IMG/VR virus record: IMGVR_UViG_3300035034_000050
Location: 1-34,188 of that record
DNA: 34,188 nt
Strand: one strand, 5' to 3'
DNA from: a virus
Positions 22,073 to 33,779 of this stretch are shown here, piece after piece; positions within the stretch are counted from its first letter, which is position 1, and every line of letters starts with the position of its first letter. Below the pieces are notes generated by a model. That model had not been told where the DNA came from, ran no database searches, and worked only from the letters and a program-made list of their open reading frames with translations. A program made the position numbers and the translations under genes.

Positions 22073-25000
22073 ATGGCGCGCAAGGATGTCGATCTCGTAA
22101 TCCGCGCCAAGGACGAAGCTGAAAAAGTCGTTAAATCAATCACGACGGCGATCAACGACTTCTCCGAGGCGCAGAAGAATCTGACCGCGAAAGCGGACAA
22201 AACGGAAAACTCGATGCAGGCCCTCGGGGCCGCTTTCGGGCAGTTCCAGAAAGACCTCCGGGGCGGAAACGCTGCGGAGGTTTTGGCGTCTACGCTGGGC
22301 AAGGCGAACACCGCTGTCGAGCGTTTGGAGAAGTCCGTCAAAGGGACGCGCGGAGAAGTCAAACGGCTCGATAGCGACTTCAAGTCGTCCTCGGCGGGCG
22401 TCGAGACCCTGCGCCAACGGGTTGCCGGGGCGGCCAAGGCCCTCGCCGACGGCAAGACATCCCTGAAGAAATACAAGAACGATCTCGCGAAAACGAAGAA
22501 AGAGGCTACTGCGCTGGCAGCAGCCGAAGCGAAGCTGAACGTCTCCGGGATCGAGAAGCGGCTGGAAGCCAAAGCTGCGGCTGCGGCCAAGACCGAGGCC
22601 CGGATCGCAGAACTGCGTCGTCAGATCGGGGGCATGGATACCCCGACAAAGCGGCTGACCTCATCCCTCGAAACCAATACCGCCAAGCTGGCTCGTCAGG
22701 CCGACGAGAGCGATAAGCTGGCGGCATCTCTCGTTCGGGCGCGCACCGAGCAGGCTGGGCTTGCCGCGAAGATGGGCGACACGGCGAACAAGATCAAAGC
22801 CAGCACGGCAGCGATCAAGAAGCAGGAAGGTATCGTCGCGGGTCTCGGGTCTGACTACCAGAAGGTCGTCACCGAGACCAAGGCCGCCGAGAAGGCGAAC
22901 GCTGATCTCGGCAAGGCGCTCGACAAGTCGAACAACGTCCTCGCCCGGCAGGATTCCCAACTCAACAAAGCCAAAGTAGAACTGAAGCAGTTCGCCGCGA
23001 CCAGCCAGCAGGCAGAGGCCGCGTTGAAGGAACTCTCGGCTGCCGGAGCCAAAGGTCTTCGCCTTGAGATCGGGACGCAAGCCCGCGCCGCGAAAGAAGC
23101 CAAGGTTCAGTTCGATGCACTGGCGAAAGAGACAAACGAACTGGCCGCCAAGATGGGCCGGGTCGGCGTCCCTACGCGCCAGATGGTCCAAGACTTTGAG
23201 CGCCTGAAGATTGAGTCCAAAGGGGCCAAGGCCGAGTTCCTGACGCAGCGCAACACGCTGGGCCAGCTTCGGCAAGTCTACCGGGAAGCCGGGACGGATG
23301 TTAATTCGCTGGCGACGGCGCAGGCCCGGTTCGTGGGTCTCCAAGGGCAAGCCGGGACGGCCATTCAGACGGCTCGGGCTAAGACAGACCAAAGCGTAGC
23401 CAGCCTGAACCAACTCCATGCGGGATACCAGAAGGCCGGGACGGCAGCAGGCGCTCTGGCCCAGAAGACTCGTTCGGGCGTGGCCGCGCAAAAACGGGAA
23501 CTCACGGTCAGTCAGCAACTCGCTCGGGCCTACCGGAACATCTATGGCGAGAAGCGCAAGGCCCTGTCGCTCACCCAGCGTCTCCGGGGCAACGTGCTGT
23601 CGCTCGTGGCGGCCTACGGCGGCCTGTATGGCGTGATCGACATCCTCCGGCGCGTTGTGGACGCCTATCAGCAGGTCGAGGCCGCGCAGGCCCGCCTCAA
23701 CGTCGCCTTTGACGGCGATATGGATGTGGTCGCGCAGGAGATGGACTATCTGCGCCGCAACGCGGAACGGTTGGGCGTAGAGTTCGGCGCGCTCGCCGGG
23801 GAATACTCCAAGTTCGCCATCGCCACCAAGAATACCGCGATTGAGGGGGGGCCAGCCCGGCGTCTGTTTATGCAGATCGCAGAGGCGGCCCGCGTCAACC
23901 GTTCCTCTATGGAGGAAATGAAGGGCGTCTTCGTCGCCGTCACCCAGATCGTGTCGAAGGGCGCGGTCCAGATGGAAGAATTGCGCCAGCAGCTTGGCGA
24001 CCGTCTCCCCGGTGCGCTGCAACTCATGGCCGACGGCCTCAACGTCACGACCGCAGAACTCATCAAAATGATGGAGCAGGGCCAAGTCACGGCGGAAGCC
24101 TTGGTCCCCTTCGGGAACGAACTCGAAAAACGCTTCGGCCCGCAACTCGCTGAGAGCCTTCAGTCGACGGCAGCCGAGATGGGCCGCCTCGAAAACGCTT
24201 CGTTCCAAGCCCTGAAGACCTTCGGCGAGGCCGGGTTCATCGACTCCTTCACGGACCTGATGCGGACCCTGACGGAGACCCTTCAGTCTGCGGACGCCGA
24301 AGCCTTTATCTCGCGCCTATCGGAGGCTTTTGCGTCCTTGTTGGACGTGATCGGGTTCGTCGCCAGCAACTTCCAACTGGTAGCGGCAGCAGCCGGGGCC
24401 TTTGTCGGGATCAAGTTGGTCCCTTTTGTTTTGGCCCTGTTTACCGGGTTCAAAAACCTCCGCACCGCGCTTATCGCGTCCAATGTGGCTATGGGGGCCA
24501 CGCAAGCCCGTGCGGCCACTATGGGCGTCTCCGTGGGCCGGGCCGCGATTGCGGTGCGCGGCCTGTCCCTTGCGTTCAAGGGGATGTTGTCGTCGACCGG
24601 GCTCGGGCTGGCCCTAGTCGCCGTCTCTACGGCTATCGGGTATTGGTCGACGCAAGCGGATCGGGCCACCGAGGCCATGAACTACCACCGTGGGATCGTA
24701 GACGATGTAAAGAACGCTTACGACGCCGCCGGAGAGTCTTCGGAAAATTGGGCGGATACGATCACGCGCGTCACATCGCAACAGGCTGAAGCAAACCTTC
24801 GGACTCTGGAAAACCAACTTCAGGCAACGCGCCGGGACGCCATCATCGCGCCTCTCGCCATCGAGAACCTTTACGAGCCTACGATTGGCGGCTTGGAAGA
24901 AACCCGGATTAAGTTGCGCGAATTGGCAAACGAGTTCCGTAATGGCAATTTGACAGTCGATGAATACAAGGCTGGTCTGGAAGAACTCGCGGACGTAGAC

Positions 25001-27088
25001 CCGACTCTTGATCGCGACTTCATCCTGTCACTCCAAGACGCTGCGGATGGCGTTCGCGGCCTCGAAATCTCGGTGCGTGAAGCCGAGTTGATCTTTATCG
25101 CGCTGACGGGGACCACGGAAGAAGCAGCGGCAGCGTTGCGTGAACTTCGTTACGGGGCCGAGGATTCGAGGGACGCCATAGACACCGGGGCTGCGGCCAC
25201 CGAGAGGTTCAATGCGGCGATGGAAGCACTCCGGGAAACACTCCCGGAAGCAGCCTCCGAGATGTCCAAGCTGGAACAGGAGACGGCGAAGATCGAAGGG
25301 GCGCTGCAACAGGCGCTTATTGCCGCCCGCGCCCTGCCAGACGCCATCATGCGGATCGCTGCGGAGCAAGAGGCTCTGGCAGCCGCGAACCAAGGTCTCA
25401 TGGACCTGACGCAAGCGGCAGTCGATGCCAAATTCGGACGGTTCACGGATAGCACGGAAGCGGCCTCGGCCTTGATTCGGCAGTTTGAGGGTTTCCGGGA
25501 AACCCCGTATTGGGATGTCAATGCGCTCCGGGCGGGCTACGGCTCGGATACAGTTACGTTGGCCGACGGGTCTGTCCAGAAGATCGTCGCCGGGATGCGG
25601 GTATCGGTGGCCGACGGCAACCGGGACTTGGCGCGTCGGATCACGACCGAGTTCATGCCCGCAGCACGGGCCGCAGTCGGGGGCGAACGCTTTGATACCT
25701 TCACGGCGCAGCAGAAAGCCGCCCTGACATCCATTGCATATAACTACGGCAGCATCCCAGACAGGATCGTCGAAGCCCTGCGCACGGGGTCCAATGAACA
25801 GATCGCCAACGCGATTCGGGGCCTCGGTGGGGACAACGCTGGGATCAACCGGGGTCGTCGGAACCAAGAAGCCGCCCTGTTCACGTCGACCGCAGCCACG
25901 GATACGGCAGCGCGCGAGCAAGAGCGCGAAGCCTCGCGTCTGGCCGATGAGGCCGAACGCCGGGCCGAAGCTGTCCGGGACTTCCACGACGCCACGGCAG
26001 CCGGGATCGAGCAGCAGCAGTTTGAGTTGTCCATCGCGGACCAGCAGCTTGTCGCCCGCGAGCAGGCCAAGGCCATTCGAGATGCCGAGTTGGCCGCCCA
26101 AGAGGCCGGGACCGTGCTTACGGAGCAGGAACGTCAGGCGATCCTCGCCAACGTCGAAGCCAAGTTCCGCCAGCAGCAGATCGACGAGAACACGGCGGAC
26201 TCGGCAGAACGTCGGGCCGATGCGGAGGAACGGGTCAATCAGCTTCTTGGATACCGGGATTCCTTGAAGACCCAGCTTGACGCTGCGGTCGAAGGTGGGG
26301 ACACCGAGAAGGCCGAGGAACTGCGCGCCAAGATTGAAGAAATCAACGGCCAGCTTGAATCCGCGATCACCAACGCCCAGAACATGTGGTCGGCGGTCGG
26401 CGGTGAGCAAGGGGACGCTGCGGTCGCCCGCCTTGAAGCCCTGCGGATCAAGTCTGCCGAGTTCGGCCAAGAGGCTGAAAACGCTTACTTCTCTTGGAAG
26501 AAAGTCGGTGATCTCCTGATGAATGGGCTGGCTTCGGCCTTCGACACGTTCGCCAAGGGTATCGCCGAAGGTAAGTCGGCGTCCGAGGCCGCGCGCGATG
26601 CCTTCTTGCAGTTTGCCGCAGACTTCCTGCGCCAGATCGCACAGATGATTATCAAGCAGGCAATCTTCAACGCCCTCAAAGGGACCGGGATTGGCAACTT
26701 CCTCGGGATCGGGGTGGCCCACGCGGGCGGCCGGGTCGGCTCCAAGCGGGCCGGGTCCGGCAACGCGGGGCGTAAGGTCAACCCGGCGGTGTTCAACGGA
26801 GCCATGCGCTACCACGTTGGCGGGATGCCGGGCCTGCGTCCGGGAGAGGTTCCGATCATCGCCAAAAAGAACGAAGAAGTTCTGACACGCGACGACCCAC
26901 GCCACATCCTGAACAGCGGGAAGGCCAGCGGGTCCGGCGGGTCCGGCAAGACCTTGAACGCGAAGATCGTGAACGCTATCGACGCGCCGTCCTTCCTCGA
27001 AGCGGCCTTGAACAGCCCTGAAGGGGAGCGGGTCTTCTTGAACTTCATGCGGGCAAACCAGAACGCGGTATCGGGGGCAGTATTCTAA
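22073..27088 (+). CDS. Tail tape measure protein with embedded GH24 lysozyme domain
   Basis: A 1671-residue protein. Residues 1-460 are alanine/lysine/glutamate-rich coiled coil. Hydrophobic segments lie at about 506-526, 767-793 and 843-858, suitable for inner-membrane channel formation during ejection. Residues about 1130-1275 form a T4-type lysozyme domain: E1139 in QFEGF, D1148 nine residues later (the T4L E11/D20 distance), then RAGYGSDT; the usual catalytic-site Thr is not in place. A second coiled coil and a conserved C-terminal VAHAGGRVG segment follow. It sets tail length and the lysozyme part probably opens peptidoglycan on entry. At about 1.5 angstrom per residue the tail would be near 0.2-0.25 micrometre. 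AAGAGG precedes the ATG. Confidence 0.92.
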   Translation: MARKDVDLVIRAKDEAEKVVKSITTAINDFSEAQKNLTAKADKTENSMQALGAAFGQFQKDLRGGNAAEVLASTLGKANTAVERLEKSVKGTRGEVKRLDSDFKSSSAGVETLRQRVAGAAKALADGKTSLKKYKNDLAKTKKEATALAAAEAKLNVSGIEKRLEAKAAAAAKTEARIAELRRQIGGMDTPTKRLTSSLETNTAKLARQADESDKLAASLVRARTEQAGLAAKMGDTANKIKASTAAIKKQEGIVAGLGSDYQKVVTETKAAEKANADLGKALDKSNNVLARQDSQLNKAKVELKQFAATSQQAEAALKELSAAGAKGLRLEIGTQARAAKEAKVQFDALAKETNELAAKMGRVGVPTRQMVQDFERLKIESKGAKAEFLTQRNTLGQLRQVYREAGTDVNSLATAQARFVGLQGQAGTAIQTARAKTDQSVASLNQLHAGYQKAGTAAGALAQKTRSGVAAQKRELTVSQQLARAYRNIYGEKRKALSLTQRLRGNVLSLVAAYGGLYGVIDILRRVVDAYQQVEAAQARLNVAFDGDMDVVAQEMDYLRRNAERLGVEFGALAGEYSKFAIATKNTAIEGGPARRLFMQIAEAARVNRSSMEEMKGVFVAVTQIVSKGAVQMEELRQQLGDRLPGALQLMADGLNVTTAELIKMMEQGQVTAEALVPFGNELEKRFGPQLAESLQSTAAEMGRLENASFQALKTFGEAGFIDSFTDLMRTLTETLQSADAEAFISRLSEAFASLLDVIGFVASNFQLVAAAAGAFVGIKLVPFVLALFTGFKNLRTALIASNVAMGATQARAATMGVSVGRAAIAVRGLSLAFKGMLSSTGLGLALVAVSTAIGYWSTQADRATEAMNYHRGIVDDVKNAYDAAGESSENWADTITRVTSQQAEANLRTLENQLQATRRDAIIAPLAIENLYEPTIGGLEETRIKLRELANEFRNGNLTVDEYKAGLEELADVDPTLDRDFILSLQDAADGVRGLEISVREAELIFIALTGTTEEAAAALRELRYGAEDSRDAIDTGAAATERFNAAMEALRETLPEAASEMSKLEQETAKIEGALQQALIAARALPDAIMRIAAEQEALAAANQGLMDLTQAAVDAKFGRFTDSTEAASALIRQFEGFRETPYWDVNALRAGYGSDTVTLADGSVQKIVAGMRVSVADGNRDLARRITTEFMPAARAAVGGERFDTFTAQQKAALTSIAYNYGSIPDRIVEALRTGSNEQIANAIRGLGGDNAGINRGRRNQEAALFTSTAATDTAAREQEREASRLADEAERRAEAVRDFHDATAAGIEQQQFELSIADQQLVAREQAKAIRDAELAAQEAGTVLTEQERQAILANVEAKFRQQQIDENTADSAERRADAEERVNQLLGYRDSLKTQLDAAVEGGDTEKAEELRAKIEEINGQLESAITNAQNMWSAVGGEQGDAAVARLEALRIKSAEFGQEAENAYFSWKKVGDLLMNGLASAFDTFAKGIAEGKSASEAARDAFLQFAADFLRQIAQMIIKQAIFNALKGTGIGNFLGIGVAHAGGRVGSKRAGSGNAGRKVNPAVFNGAMRYHVGGMPGLRPGEVPIIAKKNEEVLTRDDPRHILNSGKASGSGGSGKTLNAKIVNAIDAPSFLEAALNSPEGERVFLNFMRANQNAVSGAVF

Positions 27089-28683
27089 TGGCGATCATTT
27101 TTCCCTACGAGCCGGATTGGTCCTCCGGCGTCGAGATGAGCCGTGAATACAAGACGGAGATCATCGAGTCCCGGAACCTGACGGAGCAGCGCAAGGCGCA
27201 ACGCTCGCAGCCCCGGCGCACGGTCAGTTTTGACGTGAAGTCCCACGCCCGTCGCGGTGAGGACATCATCGAGTATCTGGAAGACAAAGCGCAGGAGCCG
27301 TTCTGGCTCCCAGACCCCACGCGCGCTGCCCTCATGGGCGAGGCGGCCCAGATCGGGGACGATAAGTTCGTGGTCAAAGGGTCCAACACACCGTTCTGGC
27401 TGAAGGCTGGGGCCAAGGTTATTTTGGGCCGGGGGACAGACGCCCTGAAGGAACTAGCGACCGTGGCGAGCGTGGATGGAGACGCGATCACCTTGGAAGA
27501 CCCTACGGCCTACGAGTGGCCCGCGAATACGCTTGTCCGCATGGCTATGCTCGGTCGCTTGGAGCAAGAGTTGGCCACGCGCTGGGTGACGACGACAACA
27601 GGCGGCATAACCTTCACCTTCTTGGAGGACCCGAACGACACCTACGAGGAAGTCTACCGCAGCCAACGGAACGACCGCTGGTATGACGGCAGAGAACTCT
27701 GGCTCCGCAAGCCCAACTGGCGCGAGCCTGTGGACGCGGGAATCCAAGGATACCTGACCACGCTGTCGTTCGACCGTGGCGTCTTCGACCACCGGGCCGC
27801 GCAACCGTTCAACACGCGCACATGGGCTGCGACATACTCCGGCATGTCCTCGGATGCGGCGGAAGAACTGATCCAGTTTGCCCACCGAAAGCGGGGTCGT
27901 AGGCACTCGTTCTGGATGCCGACTTGGCGGGACGACATGGAGTTGGCCGGGGAATCTCTGTCGGGGACAAATACGCTCACGGCCAACGGGACTGTTGTTT
28001 TTGACAGGCACGACGGTTCGGTCCACATGAATCGGGTCATCGTCTTCTTTGCCGACGGGACCCATGAGTGCAACACGGTCGACTCGATGGCGAAAGCCCT
28101 CGGGAACACAGTAATCACGATGAAGAATAATTGGTCAGCAGACCTGACCTATTCTCGGGTCCGCCAGATTTGCTGGCTCCCGCTCTGGCGCATGGCGACG
28201 GATAAGCTGACGATGCTCTGGCCGACCAGCCGGGTAGGGGAAGCCAAGGTCGCGATCCAACAGGTCCGGGCCTACCAAGCTGTCGGCGATGGGTATTTTC
28301 CGATCACCACGGCGGAGGACAACGGGACGCATACCTACGACATGCGCGGCTACGGCTTTATCTCTACGGGGGATGTCCTCGGATCGCTCGGGCTGCATTG
28401 GTCCACCGAGGCTAAGAAGATCAGCGACGGTATGGATGCAGAGGCCCTGCTACGGGTGACGGTTAAGTTCTACACCGAAGTTCTCGGCGCTCTCGGGGAC
28501 CAGATCGGCGCGACGATCACGCACGAGATCACCGCGTCTGGCGACGTGTCTTTGGATTTTGTCGATGACATCCCGGCCCGTTCAGCGTATGTCAAACTAA
28601 CTTATACGAAAACAGCGACGTTGCCGGGTGACACGGCCTACGAAAATGTCGTGGACACCGTGACGTTTAGGGGTAAGCCATAA
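27088..28683 (+). CDS. Distal tail protein-like (lambda gpM position)
   Basis: A 531-residue protein that overlaps the tape measure stop by one base. The start, IIFPYEPDWSSGVEMSREYKTEI with a following QRKAQRSQPRRTVSFDV, has the pattern of siphophage distal tail proteins: strands that bind the tail tube, with a paired QR-rich strand. A similar motif returns near residue 255 (AAEELIQFAHRKRGRRHSFWMPTWRDD). The rest is beta-rich. It probably caps the tube and connects it to the hub. It is longer than lambda gpM, so added receptor or carbohydrate domains are possible. Confidence 0.7.
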   Translation: MAIIFPYEPDWSSGVEMSREYKTEIIESRNLTEQRKAQRSQPRRTVSFDVKSHARRGEDIIEYLEDKAQEPFWLPDPTRAALMGEAAQIGDDKFVVKGSNTPFWLKAGAKVILGRGTDALKELATVASVDGDAITLEDPTAYEWPANTLVRMAMLGRLEQELATRWVTTTTGGITFTFLEDPNDTYEEVYRSQRNDRWYDGRELWLRKPNWREPVDAGIQGYLTTLSFDRGVFDHRAAQPFNTRTWAATYSGMSSDAAEELIQFAHRKRGRRHSFWMPTWRDDMELAGESLSGTNTLTANGTVVFDRHDGSVHMNRVIVFFADGTHECNTVDSMAKALGNTVITMKNNWSADLTYSRVRQICWLPLWRMATDKLTMLWPTSRVGEAKVAIQQVRAYQAVGDGYFPITTAEDNGTHTYDMRGYGFISTGDVLGSLGLHWSTEAKKISDGMDAEALLRVTVKFYTEVLGALGDQIGATITHEITASGDVSLDFVDDIPARSAYVKLTYTKTATLPGDTAYENVVDTVTFRGKP

Positions 28684-29507
28684 TGGATGATGAAGCCTTC
28701 TGGGGCGAGCCAGTCGAACTCTACCTGTTTGAGACGGGCGATTCGACATACTACGCCTACACCGACGGGGAACGGGCGATCACGCTCGGCGGGAAGACCT
28801 ATGAGCCGATCCCGATTGAGCGGGGGCGTATCACGTCCTCCGCCGGGCTGGATAAGACGCAGATGAAAGTCACCGTCCCGCTCTCGGCCCAGATTGCAGA
28901 AATCTTCCGCACATACCCGCCGGGCTTCAAGGTGAGCCTGAAGGTTTTCGCAGGGCATGTGAACGACCACGACCAGAAGTTCAACGCGGTATGGGTCGGT
29001 CGCGTGTTGCAGTGCAGCCGGGAGAACACCAGCGGCGGCGTCGAGAGAGCCGTGCTGTCGTGCGAACCTGCGTCCACAACGATGCGCCAGAGCGGCCTGC
29101 GCCGTAACTGGCAGCTATCCTGCCCGCACGTCCTCTACGGCGCGCTCTGCGGGGCCTCCGAGGCCGTTGCGACTACGAGTCATACCGTCGTGGACATGGG
29201 CGGAACATGGATCGAACTGGCCCCGGATTGGGAGGGCCCTATCCCTCGTAACAAATTCCGGGCGGGGAAGGTCAAATGGGACGGGGACTTCGGGAAGGAA
29301 CAGAGAATGATCTTGGGGACAGAAGGGGCGGTGACGCTTCAGTTGGCCGGGCCGACATCGGCTCTCAACATCGGAGACACGGTAGAAGTCGCTCTCGGGT
29401 GCAATCGGCTCCGGGGCGACTGCACGGACCTGCACGACAACATCGTGAACTTCGGGGGCCAGCCTTGGATTCCCACGGAGAACCCGATCAACAAGTCGCA
29501 GATTTGA
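28683..29507 (+). CDS. Tail hub protein, DUF2163/gpL-like, with four-cysteine Fe-S motif
   Basis: A 274-residue protein with the layout of the DUF2163/BR0599 hub family used by gene transfer agents and many alphaproteobacterial phages. The N-terminal beta domain is followed by CPHVLYGALC and by GCNRLRGDC-TDLHDNIVNFGGQPWIP at the end. Cysteines C147-x8-C156 and C240-x6-C247 have the spacing I recall for the iron-sulfur-binding lambda gpL family. It sits in the baseplate ring below the distal tail protein. Its ATG overlaps the previous stop by one base. Confidence 0.82.
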   Translation: MDDEAFWGEPVELYLFETGDSTYYAYTDGERAITLGGKTYEPIPIERGRITSSAGLDKTQMKVTVPLSAQIAEIFRTYPPGFKVSLKVFAGHVNDHDQKFNAVWVGRVLQCSRENTSGGVERAVLSCEPASTTMRQSGLRRNWQLSCPHVLYGALCGASEAVATTSHTVVDMGGTWIELAPDWEGPIPRNKFRAGKVKWDGDFGKEQRMILGTEGAVTLQLAGPTSALNIGDTVEVALGCNRLRGDCTDLHDNIVNFGGQPWIPTENPINKSQI

Positions 29508-29508
29508 C

Positions 29509-29751
29509 ATGATTGGCTGGTTCGCAACCCTCCTGATCGGGATCGCCCTGAACATTGTGGCATACCTCATCATGCCGAAGCCGAAGGCCCCCCAGCCACC
29601 GGAGACGAAGGACATGGATAGTCCGACAAACTCTACGGGTTCCCCGATCATGGTGATCTGGGGGTCCCCGAGAATCAAAGGGCTGAACATCCTGCACTCG
29701 ACAAACAAGTTGACCGTGAAGAAGACCTACAAAGAGGGCGGCAAGAAATGA
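29509..29751 (+). CDS. Small tail-tip protein with N-terminal hydrophobic helix; possible hub N-terminal piece
   Basis: An 80-residue protein. Residues 2-21 (IGWFATLLIGIALNIVAYLI) form one hydrophobic helix, followed by a proline-rich linker and then PIMVIWGSPRIKGLNILHSTN and a lysine/glycine tail. The last segment resembles the first strands of large phage central hub proteins (pattern: small residue-rich, IPV-F-G-R-I-G-NI), which usually stay joined to a YYL-LALCHGP segment. Here that second segment starts the large protein at 29941. So this may be a detached hub N-terminus. The membrane-like helix may be an assembly or ejection element. Function is not proven. Confidence 0.65.
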   Translation: MIGWFATLLIGIALNIVAYLIMPKPKAPQPPETKDMDSPTNSTGSPIMVIWGSPRIKGLNILHSTNKLTVKKTYKEGGKK

Positions 29752-29957
29752 TTAAAGTTCGTCCTGAAGACGGCTTCAAGGCGGGTCTTTGCATCTCCGG
29801 GCAGCGCCGTTTTTTGACGCGCCACAACTTCGACTTCCGGGAGTTCGTCCGGGATGGGATCGACATCGAGAGATTCCGTGCGATAAAGGATGGAAACTTG
29901 GAGCGCGCGATCAAAGCCGCTGAAGCACGGGAGGCTGACAATGGGCGGCGGCGGTAA
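29748..29957 (+). CDS. Small conserved-looking tail-region protein, function unknown
   Basis: A 69-residue basic/acidic protein whose ATG overlaps the previous stop (ATGA) and whose end overlaps the central hub gene by 17 bp. The pattern GLCISGQRRFLTRHNFDFREFVRDGI followed by FRAIKDGNLERAIKAA resembles small proteins I recall next to hub genes in other siphophages. It sits in the place of lambda gpK/gpI but has no cysteine-peptidase motif. It probably helps tail-tip assembly; this is inference from position. Confidence 0.7.
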   Translation: MIKVRPEDGFKAGLCISGQRRFLTRHNFDFREFVRDGIDIERFRAIKDGNLERAIKAAEAREADNGRRR

Positions 29958-32838
29958 GGGTAAAACCGAATATCAGGTTGCGGAATACTACCTGACTTTG
30001 GACTACGGCGTTTGTCATGGTCCCCTCGATTCCTTGAACGGCATCTGGGTCAAAGAGAAGCTGGTCTGGGAAGGCCACATCTCGCGGACCTCGACGCTGG
30101 CGATCAACGCGCTTGACGCTTTCGGTGGCAAGAAGAAAGAAGGGGGGGTTGCCGGGACCGTGGATGTCTACATGGGCGACTCGGATCAGCTAATGACCGC
30201 AGCGTCGGCTTCCCGGTATGGCCTGACCCCGACCACAATGCCCGGATACCGGGGCATCGCCCACCTGATGTTCCGGGGCAACGCGGACGACCAAGGCTTT
30301 CTGTGGGTGATGAACAACCCATACCTGCCCCCGACGTGGCTGGACGTGACCCGTATCCCGAAGGGCTGGCAAGACCACTTGTCCGCGATCCCTCGCGGGG
30401 ACATTGGCGACCGTTCGATCTACTTCTTGTTGGACAGATCACAGTCTTTGTCGGGAAGCCAGTTCAACACGATCAAAAATTCCGTTCGGGATAGTTTGGA
30501 CTTCATCGAATTGGCGATCTCGTTGGGCAACAAGATCGACCTCGGAGTCCGGTTCTGGTCCTCCGGCGTTGGTGATGTGTCCATCGAACGCACGGATGTC
30601 ACATCGACCGACATCGACGAGATCAGGGCGTTCATTGACTCCACGGGCCAGCTTTTCGGGGGCGATGTCGTCCCGGCCTATACGGCTGCCGAGACGTGGT
30701 TCCAGACGACCAAGAACGACGACTTGGCGGGGCGCTCGATCATTCTCGTGACGGACGCAGCCTCGAACGACGGCTTTAGTTCTGCGGCCTCCGGCCCGGC
30801 GGCGGACATGCTGGACCAAAACAGCGGAGAGTTCAGCAAGGCGAATGGGAACCCGGTCGACCTCTACGCCATCAACTACAATCAGGCCAACACGACCTTT
30901 ACAGCACAACTCGACAACACCACGCAGGATGGGGTCCCGGTCATCTCGGGGTCCGACACGCAAGGGCTGTCGAACGCTGTCCGGCGCGCGATCCTGTCAG
31001 GGCTAGTGTTGGACGCGAACCCGTCGCACATGATCCGGGAGTGCCTGACGAACGACGATTGGGGCCTTGGAGTCCCTGACGCGGACATCGGGGACAGTTT
31101 CATCTACGCGGCGGAGGTCCTGATCTCGGAAGGCTTCGGGCTGACTATGATGTGGACCCAACAGTCTGCCGTAGAGAAGTTCGTGCAAGAGGTCTGCGAT
31201 CACATTCAGGGCATGGTCTATCTGGACCCTGAAACGGGCCTCTGGGAGATCGTCTTGATCCGGGGCGACTATGACCTCGACGAGTGCATCACGCTCGACC
31301 CGTCGAACTGCACGGCCAACAACAGGCAGCGCAAGGCGATGTCCGAGACCAGCAATGAGATCGTCATCACATACACGGACCCAGACAACGGCGAAGACAC
31401 GTCGATCACGTTCCAAGACATTGCGAACATCGCCATGCAGGGCGGTATCAGGTCAGAGACTCGGGGCTACTACGGCGTCCGGTATTCCCGGCTCGCCCAA
31501 TTCATTGGGGGCCGCGATCTCCGGTCGGCCAGCTATCCGACGTTCTCATGCGACCTCGTAGCCAATACGCGCGCCGGGGCCGTAAAGCCCGGTCAGGTGG
31601 TCAAGTTCTCGTGGCCGGACGACGGGATCGTCGACATGCCTTTGCGGGTCTACAAGGTAGACTACGGCCAGCCGGGCGACTCGAAGATGAAGCTGACCGT
31701 CACCGAAGACATCTTTGGCCTCGGGCAGACGACATACGACCCGGTTGATCCAACAGCGTGGGACGGCATCCAACCTGAACCTATGCCCCTCGAAACGATC
31801 TCGATCACCACGACGCCGCTGCCCTTGCTCCTGCGCTCGGGCATGGCTTTGACCGACGTGGATGACGACGACTACCCGAGCGTCAGGATGACCGTCTTGG
31901 GTAACACGGCGGATCAGCCCATAGACACGATCATCCTGTGGGGGGAAGTGACGAAGCCGAACGGGTCGGTCGCGGTCGAGACCTTGGCCGAATTGCAGTC
32001 CACGCCTCTGGGAGCCTTGGAAGTCGCACTACCTCGGGAAGCCATGTCGACCCTCACGGGCGGCGAGATTCGCCGGATCACCGGGCTTCTCGCAGAACCG
32101 GAGGAAGGGGACTTCTACCAGATCGGGCTAGGCGACGACACGAGCGAGATCGTAATGCTTTACGCATACGACGACGGCGACGATGGGTATCAGGTCGCGC
32201 GCGGCATGTTCGACACGACGCCAAAGGCTTGGGTGATCGGGGACCCTATCTGGTTCCTGAACGATAGCCTGATCCAGATCGAGCCGTCGGAACATGCCTC
32301 GGGAACTGCGTCTTTCTATGAGGTCCAGACGACCAACTCCGGGGGGGTTCTCGACGAAGCCTTTATGACGACCGAGACCTTCACGCCCACGGATCGGCCT
32401 TACGCGCCGCACCGCCCAGCGGACGGGGGGATCGAAGGGAACGGCTTTGCCGAGGCCAGCTACACGGAGGCTGGGGCGTCCACGGTTCCGTCGTCCCTGA
32501 CTGTGACGTGGGCCAACCGGAATAGGTTCGATGAGGACACGGTGCCTCCGCTCTGGGGCGGCACAACAGTCACGCCTGAAGTCGGACAGACGACGACGAT
32601 CAAGGTCTGCAATCGCAGCGACGGCACGGTTGTTCACGAGTATTCCGGCATCGCAGAAGGGGCTACCACGTTCGAGATCGTGCCGGATGACTTCTTGAAC
32701 GCAGAGAGATATATCGACGTGAAGCTGTATGCTGTTCGAGACAGTATCGAATCAGTCCAACCCACCGTTCTCCTGCTCGATATTGAGCGCGTTGGCTACG
32801 GACGCAATTACGGGTATAGCTACGGTGCGCCCAGCTAA
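29941..32838 (+). CDS. Central tail hub/fibre protein (gpJ-like) with inserted von Willebrand A domain
   Basis: A 965-residue protein. Residues 1-150 have the hub pattern (YYLTLDYGVCHGPLDSLNGIWV, FGGKKKEGGVAG, GYRGIAHLMF). Residues about 158-360 are a complete vWA domain: DRSQS metal-site motif (D165, S167, S169), GGDVVPAYTAAE second loop, and ILVTDAASN with D272. After the insertion the hub resumes with NPSHMIRECLTNDDWGLG and the Phage-tail_3-like part ending VTEDIFGL (to about 600). The C-terminal 350 residues are beta-rich fibre or fibronectin-like domains. GGGAGG lies 6 nt before ATG 29941; an in-frame ATG at 29890 lies inside the previous gene and lacks one. It probably organises the tail tip and contacts the cell surface. 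Confidence 0.88.
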   Translation: MGGGGKGKTEYQVAEYYLTLDYGVCHGPLDSLNGIWVKEKLVWEGHISRTSTLAINALDAFGGKKKEGGVAGTVDVYMGDSDQLMTAASASRYGLTPTTMPGYRGIAHLMFRGNADDQGFLWVMNNPYLPPTWLDVTRIPKGWQDHLSAIPRGDIGDRSIYFLLDRSQSLSGSQFNTIKNSVRDSLDFIELAISLGNKIDLGVRFWSSGVGDVSIERTDVTSTDIDEIRAFIDSTGQLFGGDVVPAYTAAETWFQTTKNDDLAGRSIILVTDAASNDGFSSAASGPAADMLDQNSGEFSKANGNPVDLYAINYNQANTTFTAQLDNTTQDGVPVISGSDTQGLSNAVRRAILSGLVLDANPSHMIRECLTNDDWGLGVPDADIGDSFIYAAEVLISEGFGLTMMWTQQSAVEKFVQEVCDHIQGMVYLDPETGLWEIVLIRGDYDLDECITLDPSNCTANNRQRKAMSETSNEIVITYTDPDNGEDTSITFQDIANIAMQGGIRSETRGYYGVRYSRLAQFIGGRDLRSASYPTFSCDLVANTRAGAVKPGQVVKFSWPDDGIVDMPLRVYKVDYGQPGDSKMKLTVTEDIFGLGQTTYDPVDPTAWDGIQPEPMPLETISITTTPLPLLLRSGMALTDVDDDDYPSVRMTVLGNTADQPIDTIILWGEVTKPNGSVAVETLAELQSTPLGALEVALPREAMSTLTGGEIRRITGLLAEPEEGDFYQIGLGDDTSEIVMLYAYDDGDDGYQVARGMFDTTPKAWVIGDPIWFLNDSLIQIEPSEHASGTASFYEVQTTNSGGVLDEAFMTTETFTPTDRPYAPHRPADGGIEGNGFAEASYTEAGASTVPSSLTVTWANRNRFDEDTVPPLWGGTTVTPEVGQTTTIKVCNRSDGTVVHEYSGIAEGATTFEIVPDDFLNAERYIDVKLYAVRDSIESVQPTVLLLDIERVGYGRNYGYSYGAPS

Positions 32839-33140: not shown

Positions 33141-33779
33141 ATGGCTAAACGCACACTTCCCGGCCTCGGTCTCACGGGCTTCTGGCCCGCCGGGGCGAAT
33201 GATTGGGGTCCAGAGAACGACGCGAACCTGTTGGCTCTTTCGGTCATGGTCGGCGGCTCCGCGCTTTCGGCCACGACCAGCCTTCCCGGCTCCCCCAGCA
33301 ACGGAGACATCTACATTGTCCCGACGGGGGATACCAACGCCGAGGACGTGGCGATCCGGGACGACGGGGCGTGGGTCTACCTCACGCCGTCTGACGGGTT
33401 TCGCATGTGGGTTTCGGACACTAGCGAATACCTTCGGTTCGACGGGTCGAGTTGGGTCGCGACGTCTGGTGTGGTCCCGATCACGCGGCAGACGCAAACC
33501 TCAAACTACGTCCTCACCGATTCGGACCTCGCCGGGAACGTCGTCAAGAAGATAGACATTGCCGGGGCAAACACGGTCACAATCAACTCGGGACTCGTGG
33601 GGACGGAGCCACTTATGGTCGTCCAAATGGGTCTCGGGCAAACCACCTTCGTCGCAGGGGCCGGGGTGACGATCCGGTCTGCGGACGGTGCGCTGAAGAT
33701 GCGGACCCGCTATTCTGCCGCGTCTCTGATCCCAGACGGGACCAACGCATACATCCTGTCGGGAGACATCACGACATGA
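33141..33779 (+). CDS. Tail fibre-type protein with DUF2793-like domain
   Basis: A 212-residue protein. Residues about 45-105 carry the DUF2793 pattern: LPGSPSNGDIYIVPTG, then VAIRDDGAWVYLTPSDGFRMWVSDT and LRFDGSSW. This domain is common in tail fibres of phages and prophages of Rhodobacteraceae. The rest is beta-rich (NTVTINSGLVGTEPLMVV), like trimeric fibre tips. It probably adds to the receptor-binding apparatus at the tail tip. Confidence 0.72.
   Translation: MAKRTLPGLGLTGFWPAGANDWGPENDANLLALSVMVGGSALSATTSLPGSPSNGDIYIVPTGDTNAEDVAIRDDGAWVYLTPSDGFRMWVSDTSEYLRFDGSSWVATSGVVPITRQTQTSNYVLTDSDLAGNVVKKIDIAGANTVTINSGLVGTEPLMVVQMGLGQTTFVAGAGVTIRSADGALKMRTRYSAASLIPDGTNAYILSGDITT

Follow-up and report, generated by a model that had tools for sequence, protein, structure and literature searches.

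The window, that is, the whole stretch of 34,188 nucleotides analysed here (positions 1 to 34,188 of the IMG/VR record IMGVR_UViG_3300035034_000050), carries a run of tail genes whose coordinates are compiled in Table 1. From the distal tail gene onwards, their order is that of phage JBD30: distal tail, upper baseplate, two small genes, hub, and a gp54-type protein. The hub belongs to the gpJ/JBD30-type baseplate hubs both by sequence family (phrog_1101) and by fold, with TM-scores normalised by target of 0.70 to the JBD30 hub gp53 (8rk3) and 0.68 to the tail-tip protein of Salmonella phage chi (8vjh). Its start codon was placed at the ATG at 29941, with a GGAGG just 5' of it, and the mechanical ORF start at 29890 was not used. 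Two observations concern the neighbouring genes: residues 1137-1248 of the tape measure protein (window 25481-25816) match the phage lysozyme domain PF00959 (E=1.8e-6), and about 135 residues at the C-terminus of the distal tail protein (window 28270-28683) form an extension that lies outside its best matches in the phage collection and is possibly a second accessory domain.

Table 1. Features of the tail gene region and of the hub gene in the window.
Feature	Position	Strand	Evidence and remarks
Tape measure protein; its gene abuts that of the distal tail protein	22073..27088	+	TMP_3, gene order
Distal tail protein (JBD30 gp49 type), without vWA here	27088..28683	+	DUF2460, phrog_1082
Upper baseplate protein (JBD30 gp50 type), without vWA here	28683..29507	+	Pfam BR0599 and Gp84_N, phrog_778
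Two small tail genes, syntenic with JBD30 gp51 and gp52	29509..29957	+	phrog_1180 (first gene), synteny
Baseplate hub protein (gpJ/JBD30 gp53 type), 965 aa	29941..32838	+	phrog_1101 E=2e-189; JBD30 hub 8rk3 and chi hub 8vjh by sequence and fold
Hub N-terminal flank, residues 1-142, up to VTRIPKG	29941..30366	+	Aligns in hubs with and without insert
Predicted inserted vWA domain, residues 143-359 (217 residues); ordered fold about 158-351	30367..31017	+	Pfam VWA, AlphaFold2, Foldseek, absence in relatives
MIDAS motif 1, DRSQS (D165, S167, S169)	30433..30447	+	Sequence; D 103/103, S 102/103, S 103/103 in first relative set
MIDAS loop 2, GGD (G240-G241-D242), conserved threonine absent	30658..30666	+	T in 102/103 of first set
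MIDAS motif 3, T271-D272	30751..30756	+	D in 103/103 of first set
DNTTQDGVP, subfamily signature (DNTPxDGVP) near domain C-terminus	30913..30939	+	D, N, T each in 120/127 vWA copies, hub and other baseplate proteins
Remainder of hub, resuming NPSHMIRECLT at residue 360	31018..32838	+	Aligns in hubs with and without insert
Protein matching JBD30 gp54 (receptor-binding protein) profile	33141..33779	+	Profile match 1.7e-72 in L016 (identical hub); tail fibre PHROGs

An earlier note on this DNA had placed a von Willebrand A (vWA) domain at 30400-31035, between two hub segments that are contiguous in ordinary hubs. The insertion was borne out, with the domain now delimited at 30367-31017, and hubs lacking it align continuously across the site, as that note had proposed to verify. 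A profile of 12 hubs aligned to the solved structures skips the insert, passing from residue 139 to 145 in JBD30 and from 145 to 156 in chi, so that the domain is missing in relatives whose flanks join, as expected of an evolved baseplate protein. The chi protein belongs to the same hub family, with flanks that align and without a vWA domain at the site; JBD30 has about five residues there (139-145) together with the genes gp47 and gp48, whereas the window has the vWA domain and no such genes. A sequencing artefact was judged unlikely as the source of the insert, since the identical hub is present in two further IMG/VR contigs (L016 and L017).

Searched alone, the insert scores 23.9 bits against Pfam VWA (PF00092; E=5e-5; cutoff 23.8), while the whole hub protein, with 19.4 bits, stays under that cutoff. 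The AlphaFold2 model of the domain, built with 44 sequences, has a pLDDT of 83, a pTM of 0.85 and Rossmann order. With this model, Foldseek returned 253 PDB matches at E<=1e-3, and of the 50 matches listed nearly all can be recognised as vWA/integrin-I proteins or as proteins that contain a vWA domain. Of the models in the viral structure library, those of the PaMx28 upper baseplate protein gp30 and of RcTitan gp22 lie nearest, with a TM-score of 0.75 normalised by query. The structure prediction that the earlier note had suggested thus gave a Rossmann-type alpha/beta vWA fold, and a chance vWA score was rejected on the grounds of fold, family and conservation. On the predicted structure, the insert is a von Willebrand A (integrin-like) domain. 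For other viral vWA proteins, of the CobT/MoxR-partner kind, pairing with AAA genes has been described in papers; this role was rejected here from the gene context, as no AAA+ ATPase gene is adjacent and the flanking genes are tail genes.

The metal site (MIDAS) had been described as a full set. D165, S167, S169 and D272 are all where they had been placed, so that the DxSxS motif and the aspartate of the third loop are present, but the second loop reads GGD and lacks the threonine of MIDAS-type vWA domains. In a first set of 103 domains, each of the five ligands is kept in 102 or 103 members (Table 1), and the window is the sole one without the threonine. Within a larger set of 127 vWA copies, all five ligands are kept in 98 of the 102 distinct hub domains; the four that depart from the motif are those of the window, L408, L152 and L209, and GGD at loop 2 is common to the window and L408. 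In a few of the distal-tail vWA copies the MIDAS also departs or aligns poorly. In L209, the metal motif is lost from the vWA domain of the hub but retained in the distal tail copy. Adhesion dependent on a divalent ion, as the earlier note had proposed, is plausible for the family given the five intact ligands in most hub domains, and is doubtful for this phage, whose sequence lacks the MIDAS threonine. In most family members, a divalent ion at the MIDAS would mediate the host contact; where the threonine is gone, as in the phage of the window and in L408, binding may be metal-independent or may use an altered ion site.

The collection of hubs was assembled with window-, hub- and clade-based queries, keeping the best 80 loci per scan, and its frequencies describe this collection and are not a census. 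The insert site of its 308 distinct hubs is short (<60 residues) in 152, holds a vWA domain of 199-254 residues in 102, and holds another insert, of 61-372 residues, in 54. In this collection, the vWA insert is neither unique to the window nor rare. Pfam gave no match for the seven non-vWA inserts searched. Some non-vWA inserts resemble propellers or jelly rolls, an impression by eye; among them, L032 and L039 have inserts of 354-356 residues in place of the vWA domain that look beta-propeller-like, that of L032 being without a Pfam match.

The analysis of the hub-flank tree indicates that the domain has come and gone repeatedly, since well-supported branches require vWA to have been gained or lost at least 11 times, and places the window among short-site and other-insert hubs. 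The inserts of the window and L408 are 51% identical, compared with 37-39% for their hub flanks, and the best flank match of the window hub is L018, which has a short site. From these sequence relations, we read the vWA domain as having been exchanged between hubs.

The same vWA subfamily is found in three baseplate proteins, namely the hub, the upper baseplate protein and the distal tail protein. Bordetella phage MW2 carries it in the hub (APL99216), PaMx28 in gp30 and gp33, and RcTitan in gp22; all of these copies keep the MIDAS threonine, unlike that of the window. An N-terminal vWA domain is found in the upper baseplate protein of PaMx28, MW2 and others, and the RcTitan clade is among the groups with a vWA domain in the distal tail protein. 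A second vWA copy is present in MW2 and PaMx28, and also in L021, where it lies in the distal tail protein, whereas RcTitan and its relatives have the domain in the distal tail protein and none in the hub, with weaker forms of the DNTPxDGVP signature.

In JBD30, the arms formed by gp47 and gp48 grip the type IV pilus, and these fibres are anchored on the upper baseplate protein and the distal tail protein, while the hub provides attachment sites as well (PMC11445458). Neither gene was found in the window, either between the tape measure and distal tail genes, which is their place in JBD30, or in a search of the whole record. Across the collection, fibres were scored with profiles built from JBD30 gp47 and gp48, and only loci with a visible stretch upstream of the distal tail gene were considered scorable. 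On this basis, gp47/gp48 are present in none of the 63 vWA hubs, in 3 of the 39 hubs with other inserts and in 81 of the 113 with a short site. The gap between the tape measure and distal tail genes has a median of -29 bases in vWA loci and of +2076 bases where fibres were called. A whole-record search of ten named complete phages with vWA domains found neither gp47 nor gp48, and gave positive results in four control records that have fibres. Of the 32 short-site hubs that lack fibres, six have a vWA domain in the distal tail protein; the other 26 of the 113 scorable short-site hubs show neither fibres nor any detected baseplate vWA domain, so fibre loss is possible without such an insert. Hubs with a 22-residue site and without gp47/gp48 include those of L193, L265, L267 and L012 (RcMcDreamy), the last with an upstream GTA TIM-barrel protein that is perhaps another replacement.

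A naive Fisher test of the exclusion between fibres and inserts gives 1e-17 and ignores descent. In a Pagel-type model of correlated evolution on the midpoint-rooted tree, dependence is preferred, with a likelihood ratio of 39 for any insert or vWA and of 19.6 for vWA alone. Independent pairs on the tree point in the same direction (5.0 vs 0.7 of 7), with a median p of 0.125 that is not significant. The exclusion of fibres and vWA domains, strong in the counts, is thus suggestive after correction for descent.

Taken together, the insert is probably a portable vWA adhesion module on the outside of the JBD30/chi-type siphophage baseplate that replaces the lateral fibres. Adhesion is the best-supported role because other inserts occupy the same site, because the vWA domain occurs in three baseplate proteins, and because it was never seen with the lateral fibre genes; of the metal-dependent adhesion first proposed, it is the dependence on metal that is less certain here. 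The domain would face outward on the baseplate, as the range of inserts suggests, would bind a pilus or a protein on the host surface ahead of the receptor-binding proteins, and would so take over the job of the lost gp47/gp48 fibres. A broader version of this reading, which we put forward tentatively, is that in siphophages infecting Gram-negative hosts one integrin-like adhesin subfamily moves between no fewer than six sites in three baseplate proteins and replaces the pilus-gripping fibres, and that entry begins with the vWA contact.

The domain could instead be a part of the structure or assembly that touches both the upper baseplate protein and the distal tail protein and stiffens a baseplate without fibres, with no host contact. 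vWA domains commonly mediate protein-protein contacts. The copies lie in the three core proteins of the baseplate, and it is on these proteins that the fibres of JBD30 dock (PMC11445458). We consider this reading rather unlikely, since inserts of 61-372 residues at the same site are easier to reconcile with an exposed position that tolerates change than with a fixed contact, and many close hubs have no insert at all. The varied kinds of insert, up to 372 residues long, speak against a plug or gate inside the hub lumen, which would hold the tape measure protein and sense ions, as does the presence of the same subfamily in both the distal tail protein and the upper baseplate protein. This last possibility takes its appeal from the plug domain of T5 pb3, in the HDII-insertion region of the hub, where lambda gpJ has an Ig-like domain (PMC10721106); the lambda FNIII-A domain and the T5 plug are likewise extra domains in the N-terminal hub region, with folds that differ from the vWA domain and insertion points that may differ too. 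We regard the plug as very improbable.

The exclusion itself might be an accident of descent, in which a few lineages lost the fibres and separately gained a neutral insert. The independent-pair tests, which are not significant, and the lineages that lost fibres without an insert would be compatible with this account, but the correlated-evolution likelihood ratios and the complete lack of fibres among the scorable vWA hubs speak against it, and the MIDAS residues are kept across about 20-30% identity, which argues against neutrality. It is improbable in our judgement, and we retain replacement of the fibres by an adhesion module as the preferred reading.

The nearest experimental parallel is found in lactococcal phages, in whose evolved distal tail proteins an accessory binding domain likewise occurs within a conserved baseplate protein and in some relatives only; inserted carbohydrate-binding domains in the skunavirus distal tail protein promote adsorption (PMC10688798). 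They differ from the present case in the domain, in the protein that carries it, in their Gram-positive hosts, and in that their role in adsorption was shown by experiment. If our reading is right, there would be integrin-like adhesion at the phage tail tip. The openly licensed literature gave us no description of the first host contact by fibreless siphophages of this type, for which the recurrent vWA domain at the tip is a direct candidate.

The earlier note knew of no well-described hub with this insertion. No paper describing a vWA domain in a phage hub was found among openly licensed papers, but annotated relatives do exist: the MW2 hub is labelled "von Willebrand factor type A" in GenBank, and RcTitan gp22 "VWFA domain" in the structure library. 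The vWA annotation of some relatives was hence already on record, and it is the mutual exclusion of vWA hubs and gp47/gp48 fibres that is new here. Other records in the collection have peculiarities of their own. Three similar vWA-hub loci (L102, L107 and L114) come from one Anaerolinea thermophila metagenome assembly, whose host assignment may be wrong, and the hub homologue of Synechococcus virus S-ESS1 (KY249644; L011) is annotated as several separate ORFs, perhaps owing to frameshifts in the record.
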